Origin: Frondihabitans australicus
GTDB lineage: Bacteria > Actinomycetota > Actinomycetes > Actinomycetales > Microbacteriaceae
Assembly: GCF_003634555.1 (NCBI RefSeq)
Contig: NZ_RBKS01000001.1
Span: 868,001-932,000 of the forward strand
Direction: 5' to 3'
Length of the DNA: 64,000 nucleotides
In this document: piece by piece, positions 51,655 to 54,950 of the stretch
How positions within the stretch are numbered: position 1 is the first letter of the stretch
Layout of the letters: each line of letters starts with the position of its first letter
Made by a program: the position numbers and the translations under genes
The notes under the pieces: generated by a model
Database searches by the model: none
What the model was told of the DNA's origin: nothing
What the model saw: the letters and a program-made list of their open reading frames with translations, nothing else

Positions 51655-52254
51655 GTGCTTGAAGAGGAATACCAGCCCAGGCGCCAGCTGCCTCGCCACC
51701 TGAGGCCTGCGCCGGCTCCTGAGCCCGAGTTCTCGTTCGAGATCAGGCCCGCGACGGCGACCGACATGCCTGCGGTGCGCGACGTCTACAACCTCTACGT
51801 GGCGAACTCGACGGTGACATTCGACTCGCGGCAGAAGTCGCTAGGCGAATGGCGGGCCGTCTTCGCTCGCGCCACCCGGCTGCGACTGCCGTTCCTCGTG
51901 GCAGTGTCGCCTGCCGGCACCGTGCTCGGCTACGCCCACGTCGAGCCGTGGCAGGGGCGGGAGACGAACCGCTCGATCGTCGAGACGTCGATCTACCTCG
52001 GGCCGGCGGCGACCGGGAAGGGACTCGGGCGAGCGCTGCTGGCGGCGCTGCTCGACGCCTGCCAGGAGGCCGGGATCCGGCAGATCATCGCGATCATCGC
52101 CGACCAGGGCGCCGACGCGTCGATCCGGTTGCACGCGTCGCTCGGGTTCAAGGAGATCGGCCGGATGGGGCGGGTCGGCTTCAAGTTCGACCGGTGGCTG
52201 GGCACCGTGACGATGCAGAAGAACCTGAAGAAGAAGTCGCGGGTCGGGCGCTAG
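51655..52254 (+). CDS. GNAT acetyltransferase, phosphinothricin-acetyltransferase-like
   Basis: 199 aa. An N-terminal ~30-residue Pro/Arg-rich stretch precedes the GNAT domain: IRPATATDMPAVRDVYN, GYAHVEPWQGR, the acetyl-CoA loop ATGKGLGRALLAALLDA and ASIRLHASLGFKEIGRMGRV before a Lys-rich end. This layout matches the Pat/methionine sulfoximine acetyltransferase group. The GTG start lies 4 bp after ung, so it is the last gene of that transcript. Acceptor unknown. Confidence 0.87.
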   Translation: MLEEEYQPRRQLPRHLRPAPAPEPEFSFEIRPATATDMPAVRDVYNLYVANSTVTFDSRQKSLGEWRAVFARATRLRLPFLVAVSPAGTVLGYAHVEPWQGRETNRSIVETSIYLGPAATGKGLGRALLAALLDACQEAGIRQIIAIIADQGADASIRLHASLGFKEIGRMGRVGFKFDRWLGTVTMQKNLKKKSRVGR

Positions 52255-52279
52255 GAGTCGCGGCGAGTCGATCGCGGCG

Positions 52280-52636
52280 CTAGTGCGTCGCGGCCGCGCT
52301 GTGCCGCCCGCCGACCTCGAGGAGCGCGACGCCGGCGATGACGAGCACCATGCCGCCGATCTGCACGAGGGTGAGCGACTCGTGGAACACCAGCCACGAG
52401 ATCACGGCGACCAGGACGACGCCGACCCCGGCCCAGATCGCGTACGAGATGCCCAGCGGGATGCCCTGGTTGAGGGCGCGCTGCAGGAGCACGAACGAGG
52501 CGATGTAGCCGACGGCGACGATGGCGTACGGCCACACGGGCGCCTTGCCCTCGGCGCCGGGGGTGCTCGTGACGCGGAGGAACGTGGTCGCGACCACTTC
52601 GCTGACGATCGCCGCGGCGAGGAGGAGGTAGCCCAT
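52280..52636 (-). CDS. SMR-family multidrug efflux protein
   Basis: 118 aa, four membrane helices. The essential membrane Glu is at position 13 (GYLLLAAAIVSEVVAT), and LNQGIPLGISYAIWAGVGVV in helix 3 matches EmrE-type members. Exports cationic compounds or acts in a pair; it is single here. A TACGGT hexamer seven bases before ATG 52636 supports this start over the one three codons upstream. The palindromic array at 52773-52866 lies about 140-230 bp upstream of it. Confidence 0.92.
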   Translation of the reverse strand: MGYLLLAAAIVSEVVATTFLRVTSTPGAEGKAPVWPYAIVAVGYIASFVLLQRALNQGIPLGISYAIWAGVGVVLVAVISWLVFHESLTLVQIGGMVLVIAGVALLEVGGRHSAAATH

Positions 52637-52643
52637 GGCTCTC

Positions 52644-52649
52644 ACCGTA
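52644..52649 (-). promoter_or_regulatory. -10-like hexamer TACGGT of the SMR gene
   Basis: TACGGT on the minus strand, seven bases before the SMR ATG; leaderless arrangement. Confidence 0.45.
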
Positions 52650-52772
52650 GCGTCTCGCCGTGAATGACTCGTGCCGTGCCGGGCGTGGTCGCCGTCGCTA
52701 GTGGCTCCTCGCTCATCGCTTTTCCCTGCGCGGCTGCCAGTCGTCGCCGGGGAGGTTGTCCCATGGACGTTC

Positions 52773-52866
52773 TTCAGGTTCGCCTGAATTCAGGAATTCC
52801 TGAAGCTGGCCTCACCCTTCACCTGAACCCCAATTTCAGGTTCGCCTGAATTCAGGCGAACCTGAA
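52773..52866. repeat. four-copy palindromic array TTCAGG-N4-CCTGAA
   Basis: Copies at 52773-52788 (spacer TTCG), 52789-52804 (AATT), 52835-52850 (TTCG) and 52851-52866 (CGAA). Copies 1-2 and 3-4 abut directly; the pairs are separated by 30 bp that hold one more half site (CCTGAA, 52822-52827). The second pair lies inside a perfect 34-bp palindrome, 52834-52867. The array is clearly less GC-rich than its surroundings. It lies in the 370-bp gap between the SMR gene and the chaplin-like gene, which holds nothing else I recognise. Probably an operator for an unknown dimeric regulator. Confidence 0.8.
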
Positions 52867-53006
52867 AGACGCCCTGCGGCATACCTGCCCGCGGCCGGTG
52901 CTGTAGGGGGGCGCAACAGTGTCGACCGGGCGGACCCCTGATCCCGTGCAGGCCAAACGGCCCGACCGGCGGGAGGATGCCGGCGGGCCGATCGGCCTCG
53001 CTCGAC

Positions 53007-54950
53007 TCAGCGGTGCAGGCGTGCCCTGAGGGCCAGGGCCAGGCCTCCCATCACGAGAAGCGCCGCTGCGACGAGACCCGCGAGCGGGTTCGCGCTGCCG
53101 GTGTAGGCGAGGGTGCCGGAGTCGGCGAGGGCGGTGGTCCCGCCCAGGCCGGCCATAGTGGCGTTCCCCGCCAGCGAGGTGTCGAGGGAGCCGGTGACGA
53201 CGTCACCCGTTCCCGAGCCGATCCCGGAACCCGAGGTGGACGAGCCGCCCGGGATGGTGGAGGTTCCGGGGTCGGAGGTGCTTCCGCCCGTGTTGCCGCC
53301 GGTCGAGCCGCCCGTGTTGCCGCCGGTCGAGCCGCCGGTCGAGCCGCCAGTGTTGCCGCCGGTCGAGCCACCCGTGTTGCCGCCGGTCGAGCCACCGGTC
53401 GAGCCGCCAGTGTTGCCGCCGGTCGAGCCACCCGTGTTGCCGCCGGTCGAGCCACCGGTCGAGCCGCTGCCCGTCGACGTGGTCGAGCTGTCGCCGATCA
53501 CCGAGACGGCGTCGCCGCCCACGGTCACCGGCAGCGAGATCACGGGGGTGATCTGCGTGCCGCTCAGCAGGCCTCCGTCACCGGTGGTTGTGCTGCCCGC
53601 GGTGGTTCCGGTCGCAGGATCCGAGGCGGTCGTCGACCCGGTCGAGGTCGCGTCGCCGAGCACCGACACGGCGTCGCCCGTCGCCGTGACCGGAGCGGTC
53701 AGCGTCGGGGCGATCTGCGTGCCGGAGGCGGTGCCGTCCGAGCCGGTCGTGCTGTCACCGGCGGTAGTGCCGGTGCCGGTGCCGGTCGAGGTGCCGGTGG
53801 TCGGCGCCGAGGCGCCGCCCGTCGTCGAGCCGGTCGAGGTCGCGTCGCCCAGCACCGAGATGCCGTTGCCCGAGACGGTGACCGGTGCGGTCACGTCGGG
53901 GACGATCTGCGTTCCCGAGGCGATGCCGCTGGTGCCCGAGGTGGTGTCGCCCGATCCTGCGCCCGGAGCCGGCGCAGCCGACCCCGCAGGAGTGCCCGAG
54001 GCCGTCGACGACCCGGTCGACGACGAGTCGCCCAGCACCGAGATGCCGTTGCCGGCGATCGTGATCGGCACGTCGAGCCCGATCAGCGCCTGGGTGCCGC
54101 CGAGCGTCGACGAGTCGCCGCTGGTCGTGGCCGGCGAGCCGGTCGCAGGAGCCGCGGCAGAGCCGCCCGCCCCCGCGTTCGACCCGCTCGATGACGAGTC
54201 CCCGATCACCGAGATGCCGTTGCCCGACACCGTCACCGGCACCGTCAGCCCGATGAGGGCCTGCGTGCCGCTGGCCGTTCCGTCGCTGCCCGACGTCGTC
54301 GGAGCGGCGGCCGAGGCCGCGGCCGGAGCCAAGCCGGAGGTCGGCGTAGGAGCCGCGTTCGACCCGCTCGAGGACGAGTCCCCGATCACCGAGATGCCGT
54401 TGCCGGACACCATCACCGGCGCGGACACGGTCGGGGCGACCTGGGTGCCGGAGGCGGTGCCGTCGGAGCCCGAGGTGCTGGGCGCGGCGGCCGGAGTGAC
54501 AGCCGACGAGGCGGGCGCGGGGGTCGAGGAGGCCGGCGCGGCCGAGGCCGTGGAGCCGGTCGACGTGGACGATCCTGCGACCGAGACGGCGTTGCCCGAG
54601 ACGGTGACGGGCAGGTGCACGGAGACGATGCCCTGCGTGCCCGAGAGCAGACCGTTCGAGCCGGTCGTCGTCGGAGCGGCGGCGGGCGTGGTCGCCGCCG
54701 GCGCTGCCGCGGCCGAGGCCGGAGCAGGTGTCGCGGCGGGTGCCGCCGACGTGCTGACGGCGTGGCCGAGGACGCTGATGGCGTTGCCCGCGGCCGTGAC
54801 GGGGGCGGTGATGCCGCCCGTGACCTGGGTGCCCGACGCGATGCCGTCGTTCCCCGAGGTCGTGGCGGCGTTGGCCGCCGTGGCGCCGAGGGCCCAGAGG
54901 CCTCCGACGAAGCAGGCTCCGATGAGCCCGCGGAAGACGTACTTGTTCAT
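53007..54950 (-). CDS. large chaplin-like, LAxTG-anchored cell-wall protein with eight repeats
   Basis: 647 aa. Signal peptide (about 1-28, ending TAANAA). Eight units of about 45 residues recur at roughly 50-70 aa intervals, each of the form SGTQ-x2-P-x-V-x2-PVTVSGN-x-ISVLGD (for example SGTQIVPDVTAPVTVSGN). This matches the hydrophobic beta pattern of the chaplin domain of aerial-hypha surface proteins but has none of its cysteines. A Gly/Ser/Thr/Asn spacer encoded by a 60-bp tandem repeat follows, then LAYTGS, a hydrophobic helix and the basic end RARLHR: a sortase signal of the LAxTG type used by class E sortases. AGGAG lies eight bases before the ATG. A surface or amyloid role is inferred. 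Confidence 0.85.
   Translation of the reverse strand: MNKYVFRGLIGACFVGGLWALGATAANAATTSGNDGIASGTQVTGGITAPVTAAGNAISVLGHAVSTSAAPAATPAPASAAAAPAATTPAAAPTTTGSNGLLSGTQGIVSVHLPVTVSGNAVSVAGSSTSTGSTASAAPASSTPAPASSAVTPAAAPSTSGSDGTASGTQVAPTVSAPVMVSGNGISVIGDSSSSGSNAAPTPTSGLAPAAASAAAPTTSGSDGTASGTQALIGLTVPVTVSGNGISVIGDSSSSGSNAGAGGSAAAPATGSPATTSGDSSTLGGTQALIGLDVPITIAGNGISVLGDSSSTGSSTASGTPAGSAAPAPGAGSGDTTSGTSGIASGTQIVPDVTAPVTVSGNGISVLGDATSTGSTTGGASAPTTGTSTGTGTGTTAGDSTTGSDGTASGTQIAPTLTAPVTATGDAVSVLGDATSTGSTTASDPATGTTAGSTTTGDGGLLSGTQITPVISLPVTVGGDAVSVIGDSSTTSTGSGSTGGSTGGNTGGSTGGNTGGSTGGSTGGNTGGSTGGNTGGSTGGSTGGNTGGSTGGNTGGSTSDPGTSTIPGGSSTSGSGIGSGTGDVVTGSLDTSLAGNATMAGLGGTTALADSGTLAYTGSANPLAGLVAAALLVMGGLALALRARLHR
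53281..53460. repeat. 60-bp tandem repeat, three copies
   Basis: Bases 53341-53400 and 53401-53460 are identical, and 53281-53340 is a diverged third copy. It encodes a 20-residue Gly-Ser-Thr-Asn unit of the wall-spanning spacer in the chaplin-like protein. Perfect identity of adjacent copies suggests recent expansion and possible copy-number variation. Confidence 0.9.

Follow-up and report, generated by a model that had tools for sequence, protein, structure and literature searches.

A dispersed intergenic palindromic repeat in Frondihabitans australicus and its relatives, with an ArsR-like protein as candidate binder

The window, a stretch of 64,000 nucleotides from Frondihabitans australicus, carries a short palindromic array at positions 52773-52866. 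This array is a copy of a dispersed repeat rather than an operator of the neighbouring SMR efflux gene: almost certainly, it is one two-unit copy of an intergenic repeat that recurs elsewhere in the same genome. We suggest that the repeat is a dispersed, copied recognition element for a dimeric protein, with an ArsR-like protein as candidate binder. Judged from sequence comparisons, we give this reading as a whole a probability of about 50%. The comparisons involved seven genomes of the genus, comprising the organism's own genome (G000; 4.04 Mb) and six others (G001-G006).

The array consists of four exact TTCAGG-N4-CCTGAA dyads (52773-52788, 52789-52804, 52835-52850 and 52851-52866) with the spacers TTCG, AATT, TTCG and CGAA, in this order. 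They form two directly abutting pairs with 30 bp between the pairs, just as an earlier note on this DNA had described them. Six matches to the dyad with at most two mismatches were found in the window, a number reached by none of 100 dinucleotide shuffles (mean 0.80, largest 4). Dyads 1 and 2 make up unit 1 (52773-52804; 32 bp), which by exact pattern matching reads TTCAGGTTCGCC-TGAATTCA-GGAATTCCTGAA around its centre TGAATTCA (52785-52792), and whose arms are symmetric at 9 of 14 positions in the unit scan. Dyads 3 and 4 make up unit 2 (52835-52866), a perfect 32-bp palindrome (TTCAGGTTCGCC-TGAATTCA-GGCGAACCTGAA) inside the perfect 34-bp palindrome that the earlier note had seen (52834-52867; G000:C1:920834-920867), which equals its own reverse strand at 100%. 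The 30-bp inter-unit spacer (52805-52834) was delimited by aligning the copies. On the left, an outer half-site part (52745-52772) holds a weakly conserved box that extends to about -40 from the centre, based on a second, weaker information peak at -35 to -26 in 14 half-sites of G000. On the right, the same box is found inverted (52867-52895). None of these features is assigned a strand.

Measured in 94-base steps, GC content falls to 0.57 and 0.53 in the two that mostly cover the array, compared with 0.63-0.77 in the remaining nine steps of 52500-53063, in agreement with the less GC-rich patch reported before. Both neighbouring genes also lie where they had been placed. The SMR-family efflux gene (Multi_Drug_Res; 52280-52636, minus strand; Pfam PF00893, E 1.4e-22) has its predicted start at 52636, 137-230 bp from the array. 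The chaplin-like gene (53007-54950, minus strand; Pfam PF03777, E 3.1e-14) points its 3' end towards the array, which lies 141 bp past the stop. According to Pfam, the chaplin-like protein of 647 aa has two ChpA-C stretches; by eye, it shows a long GGSTGGNTGG-type repeat followed by a hydrophobic C-terminal end.

Searching the whole of G000 confirmed that the dyads are real, yet showed that the array is not unique. In total, 17 exact TTCAGG-N4-CCTGAA dyads occur at seven places only, located at about 597.7, 628.8, 708.3, 831.5, 920.8 (the window), 1609.9 and 1884.8 kb; the reversed control pattern gave none. All seven places lie between predicted genes, so that the family is dispersed, extragenic and palindromic in the manner of REP and ERIC elements. 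The two-unit repeat is present at six of the seven. A DNA search with the window copy returned four copies that were 92-93% identical over 99-111 bp and one that was 84% identical, while the single-unit copy (39 bp) was 95% identical to the window copy. The copies occur in both orientations. The genes beside the other six places differ from place to place; they encode LRR/DUF3761 together with TM2 proteins, FAD-binding together with GNAT proteins, HutD together with a protein that Pfam does not match, an FMN oxidoreductase, a LigD primase-polymerase together with a second such unmatched protein, and an epimerase. Genes were labelled globin, biotin carboxylase, purine phosphorylase or LXG-like presumptively, by the appearance of their sequences. 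The non-palindromic 30-bp spacer is nearly identical in five of the six two-unit copies, with the 708k copy as the exception. This conservation points to copying, and a regulator would leave it unexplained.

MITEs are short non-coding inverted-repeat elements that are copied between intergenic sites. A MITE-like mobile element, whose inverted halves would be recognised by a transposase encoded elsewhere and whose copies would enter intergenic regions, could account for the highly identical copies, spacer included, at unrelated loci in both orientations. It would also account for presence and absence at orthologous sites, as seen for the 1884.7k copy, which in all six other genomes of the genus is absent from the stretch of about 420 bp that follows the orthologous upstream gene, and for a placement that, by length, resembles random intergenic space. 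However, direct repeats of 3, 4, 5, 6, 8 or 9 bp at equal offsets of 10-79, as expected of target-site duplications, were found in at most 2 of 10 elements in G002, 2 of 10 in G001 and 1 of 7 in G000. The inner arms, next to a centre that served as the search key, are more conserved than the outer ends, which is the opposite of terminal repeats. Moreover, Pfam identified no transposase among 11 of the 12 immediate neighbours at the other six G000 places. We therefore regard a MITE-like element as possible but somewhat doubtful. An origin from phages or plasmids was rejected: three exact pattern scans of viral_contigs gave no matches, the window element had no phage match, and the sole plasmid match was weak, covered 26% of the query and lay inside an annotated helicase gene.

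The repeat was also studied across the genus and beyond. The 30-nt tandem pattern was present in 3 of 99 genomes (G000, G001 and G003), and the 16-nt core, with one mismatch allowed, in 9 of 99. These nine were five genomes of the genus plus four from outside it, each of the latter with a single altered core. Within the genus, the repeat unit occurred in five of the seven genomes, with T(A/T)CAGG arms in three and CTTTCC arms in two. Elements were found in G001 at 11 examined places plus the rpsP interval, and in G003 at two places, one of which is an array between smc and a mutM-type (Fapy glycosylase) gene (L147, 2353-2516). The CTTTCC-arm version comprised 12 units at 10 places in G002 and 10 units in two arrays in G005, with none in the other five genomes of the genus. 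Allowing up to three mismatches, 21 of the 22 CTTTCC-arm matches kept TGAATTCA; altered centres were seen at L144 and in one G005 unit. Part of this constancy follows from the method, because units were mostly located by an exact TGAATTCA match.

In G002 and G005 the 16-bp sub-dyads are gone and the palindrome of ~32 bp around TGAATTCA stays; sub-dyads were found in CAGG-arm species only. The 16-bp dyad is not the general unit. What the genus has in common is a palindrome of ~32 bp centred on TGAATTCA and, more weakly, boxes further out that reach about ±40. The centre-to-centre spacing is 62 bp in the window, 37-47 bp in G001, 56-57 bp in the rpsP array of G005 and 58-82 bp in G003. The layout is common to four other species of the genus and the arms are species-specific. 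As far as searched, the repeat appears limited to this genus, and the titles and abstract openings of the open-access literature yielded no description of it.

The earlier note had interpreted the array as a protein-binding site connected with the SMR pump. The first part of this interpretation held up, the connection with this particular pump did not. An operator array that specifically controls the pump would agree with the position of the array 137-230 bp upstream of the predicted SMR start, and with the amidase-SMR interval of two relatives, where an element is also present: in G001 it lies 66 bp from the predicted SMR start, and in G002 it is located ahead of a mycothiol-S-transferase gene, which in turn precedes SMR. 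Including G000, this interval holds the element in three of the six genomes with an SMR gene; G004 gave no SMR gene match. In contrast, none of the other six places in G000 has an adjoining SMR gene, and the SMR genes of G003, G005 and G006 have no TGAATTCA unit in the surrounding 6.5 kb. Absence upstream of SMR in close relatives, which the earlier note had named as evidence against its own proposal, was thus observed in three relatives and not in two. Furthermore, a simple scan detected no sigma-70-like promoter in the interval. Specific control of the pump by this array is therefore very improbable. In G001, two units that are direct repeats, similar over about 65 bp, flank a lower-GC island of 7.7 kb (L151, 4681-12378). 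The island contains a WXG100 gene, a gene for a 522-aa protein without a Pfam match and a tandem series of short proteins that resemble each other, and it sits between the chaplin-like and SMR genes, which are neighbours in the window.

We compared the gene context of 33 places, consisting of the window and 32 loci (L140 and L141 were counted as two). Not included were the G004 places L148 and L149, a one-mismatch core of G001 at 4328321, and partial G000 matches at 1116.5k and 2766.4k. The position of L144, which has an imperfect centre, was set manually. Units per place were counted within 900 bp of the locus middle, which gives five for L177, where the unit scan gives six. Genes were predicted with a home-made codon-usage script, and the gene contexts are approximate because this script missed the ArsR-like gene itself. 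As predicted, 10 places were convergent, 4 divergent and 19 tandem. By count, convergent intervals made up 17% of the background (p 0.048) and divergent ones 28% (p 0.023); by length, the shares were 30% (p 0.56) and 20% (p 0.18), respectively. Since the background by length matches, and was taken from samples of G004 and G006, we claim no enrichment in placement. By length, the places are distributed as random intergenic placement would have them, which disagrees with a promoter regulon. In particular, ArsR-family operators would be expected in the promoters of regulated genes, whereas ten of these places lie between predicted convergent genes.

Half-sites were aligned on the centre for G002 (n = 20), G001 (n = 20) and G000 (n = 14), leaving out G003 and G005. 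Information was high from -15 to -1 in all three species, with a second, weaker peak between -35 and -21. Beyond -40, five-base means were at most 0.07, 0.09 and 0.19 bits in G002, G001 and G000, respectively. This profile used L142 (one unit, both halves) and omitted L178 and L144, whereas the comparison of outer-box sequences used L178 (one unit of four) and omitted L142 and L144.

A REP/ERIC-like hairpin in RNA, or a cruciform, would be another explanation of the palindromes, for instance as a stabiliser of 3' ends or a terminator without a U tail. As RNA, the window copy would fold strongly (-61.8 kcal/mol; z -11), one or more predicted gene 3' ends border 29 of the 33 places, and a palindrome family of ~64 bp exists in G006. 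A hairpin would be expected to show co-variation between its arms. However, the pairing of arms from the same element was 0.686 in G000 and 0.677 after shuffling (7 elements; reached by 35% of shuffles), and 0.700 and 0.688, respectively, in G002 (10 elements; 25% of shuffles). In G001 there was a weak excess (0.660 vs 0.603; 10 elements; 2.6% of shuffles), perhaps due to two sub-families there; its three single-unit elements alone showed none (0.650 vs 0.639; 34% of shuffles). In addition, a simple scan of 52630-53020 found no terminator-like site (GC-rich hairpin followed by a T run), and Rfam gave no match at the gathering score in 52000-53600, the best being a miRNA model with 34 of the required 90 bits (E 9.8e-5). 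A hairpin function is thus unlikely. The lack of co-variation in G000 and G002 favours recognition of the DNA by a protein, whereas the weak excess in G001 would speak for a hairpin. Together with the conserved half-sites and the absence of terminator-like sites, the results in G000 and G002 support the earlier preference for protein binding over a terminator. Each unit is probably a protein-recognition site.

We compared up to four neighbours of each of the 33 places. Only two positions were common to more than one species, the amidase-SMR interval and the interval upstream of rpsP. The latter contains both an ArsR-like gene and units in all five gene-bearing genomes (G000, G001, G002, G003 and G005), and neither the gene nor TGAATTCA in G004 and G006. 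With five genomes having both and two having neither, the co-occurrence is suggestive only. The units lie upstream of the ArsR-like gene in five of five cases, where the gene is assumed to be the cognate one. Depending on the possible starts, they are about 90-135 bp upstream in G000, 30-130 bp in G002 and 170 bp in G005. In G003 another open reading frame lies between the units and the gene, and in G001 the start of the gene is ambiguous. The G001 gene seems to lose its frame close to the 5' end (L178, 1644-2120), which may reflect a sequencing error or a decaying gene.

The ArsR-like gene matched HTH_5 (E 3.7e-5; 24 bits, cut-off 22) and, below the cut-off of 55 bits, NF033788 (E 6.6e-12; 45 bits). 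An AlphaFold model based on five sequences, with a low mean pLDDT of 64, matched ArsR-family structures such as 3f6o and 7p6f. The protein diverges fast, as its orthologues are 48-56% identical to the G000 copy, compared with 81-92% for rpsP (in blast pieces). Weaker relatives (at most 44% identity) were found in 14 genomes outside the genus, all without the 30-nt element. A link between recognition helix and arm class was rejected: one column of the helix (R/K) tracks the arm class, and this is no evidence because dividing the five proteins in other ways also yields 0-2 columns of this kind. The tree of the five ArsR-like proteins does not follow the arm class either. Against the protein stand three CCTGAATTCAGG in 157 bp of G004, which lacks the gene (L148, 2413-2569; near 1126.9 kb), and a different palindrome at rpsP in G006. 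In G006, which likewise lacks the gene, the palindrome belongs to a separate family of ~64 bp centred on GGTCCTAGGACC (G006:C1:870791 and 1000497; L242 and L249). Its two copies in the 400 kb sampled, one of them in the rpsP interval, are about 85% identical over 66 bp, and the same sample contained no TGAATTCA. The rpsP-linked ArsR-like protein is proposed as a tentative candidate binder.

A parallel was found outside the genus. We scanned genome_contigs (84,980 species, each represented by a single genome; records very near the own genome are possibly absent) for exact matches to CAGG-N4-CCTGAATTCAGG-N4-CCTG, and obtained nine stretches. In six of these (five Streptomyces and one Microtetraspora; L069, L070, L071, L074, L075 and L077), a cmtR-type ArsR gene follows about 40 bp after the start of the palindrome. 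All six palindromes share 24-25 of 32 bases with the G000 unit TACAGGTTCGCC-TGAATTCA-GGCGAACCTGTA. One of the six genes encodes the probe protein, which scored 139.5 bits against the CmtR model (cut-off 150); four more encode proteins that share 79-98% identity with this probe, and the remaining one is represented by a fragment of 30 residues where its locus ends. The other three stretches (Acidimicrobiaceae, Cytophagales and Gammaproteobacteria) contain no cmtR-type gene. The palindrome in Streptomyces and Microtetraspora is likely a CmtR operator. G000 encodes no close CmtR (best match 41% over 85 residues), so the outside case is a parallel in architecture and not the regulator itself. A CmtR regulon in the own genome was rejected, because, of the seven genomes, G005 alone encodes a close CmtR (56%), and the palindrome is missing from the ~120 bp in front of its gene.

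In the reading that we prefer, each unit would be a recognition site at the DNA level for a dimeric protein. The protein would read the TGAATTCA centre and inner arms of ~14 nt, with a weaker contribution from an outer box at a distance of about two helical turns. Copies would spread among intergenic regions and be kept alike within a species. The best candidate for the binder, the ArsR-fold protein that diverges fast and whose gene immediately precedes rpsP, would be autoregulatory at the rpsP interval, and the other copies would act as extra operators, decoys or roadblocks. Alternatively, an unseen transposase or another protein may have made the sites and may read them. We also considered, as a long shot, that the ArsR-fold protein evolves rapidly as a pair with an operator that spreads by itself. 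The unit would be copied with TGAATTCA kept and the arms changing between species, it would serve as a roadblock or insulator separating adjacent genes and not at promoters, and species without the protein would lose the palindrome in the home interval. If the ArsR-like protein binds, five species with two arm classes and a common centre make up a small natural series. Swapping the protein and its DNA site among them could show how binding specificity and a dispersed family of sites change together. If no host protein binds, the repeat is a compact low-copy family for finding movers in high-GC Gram-positive bacteria.

Several known systems resemble the element in part. REP/BIME and ERIC elements are short palindromic intergenic units that are dispersed, species-specific, and single or clustered, and the same can be said of the units in this genus. 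Unlike REP and ERIC elements, the genus element is low-copy, with 2 to about 12 places found per genome, its arms are conserved as half-sites and show no pairing co-variation in two of the three species compared, and its 8-bp centre is identical in five species. With MITEs it shares short non-coding inverted repeats copied between intergenic sites; it differs in the lack of target duplication, in the lack of a transposase among the tested neighbours, and in the conservation of inner arms instead of ends. Among ArsR/SmtB proteins, Rv2034 is reported to repress its own expression by binding to an inverted repeat whose halves are 4 bp apart (PMC3338718). In contrast to the operators of CmtR and Rv2034, many copies in the genus lie outside promoters, and the G000 array was copied together with its spacer. 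A further resemblance to ArsR/SmtB operators is seen in the cmtR-type genes of Streptomyces and Microtetraspora, which are preceded by CAGGN4CCTGAATTCAGGN4CCTG.
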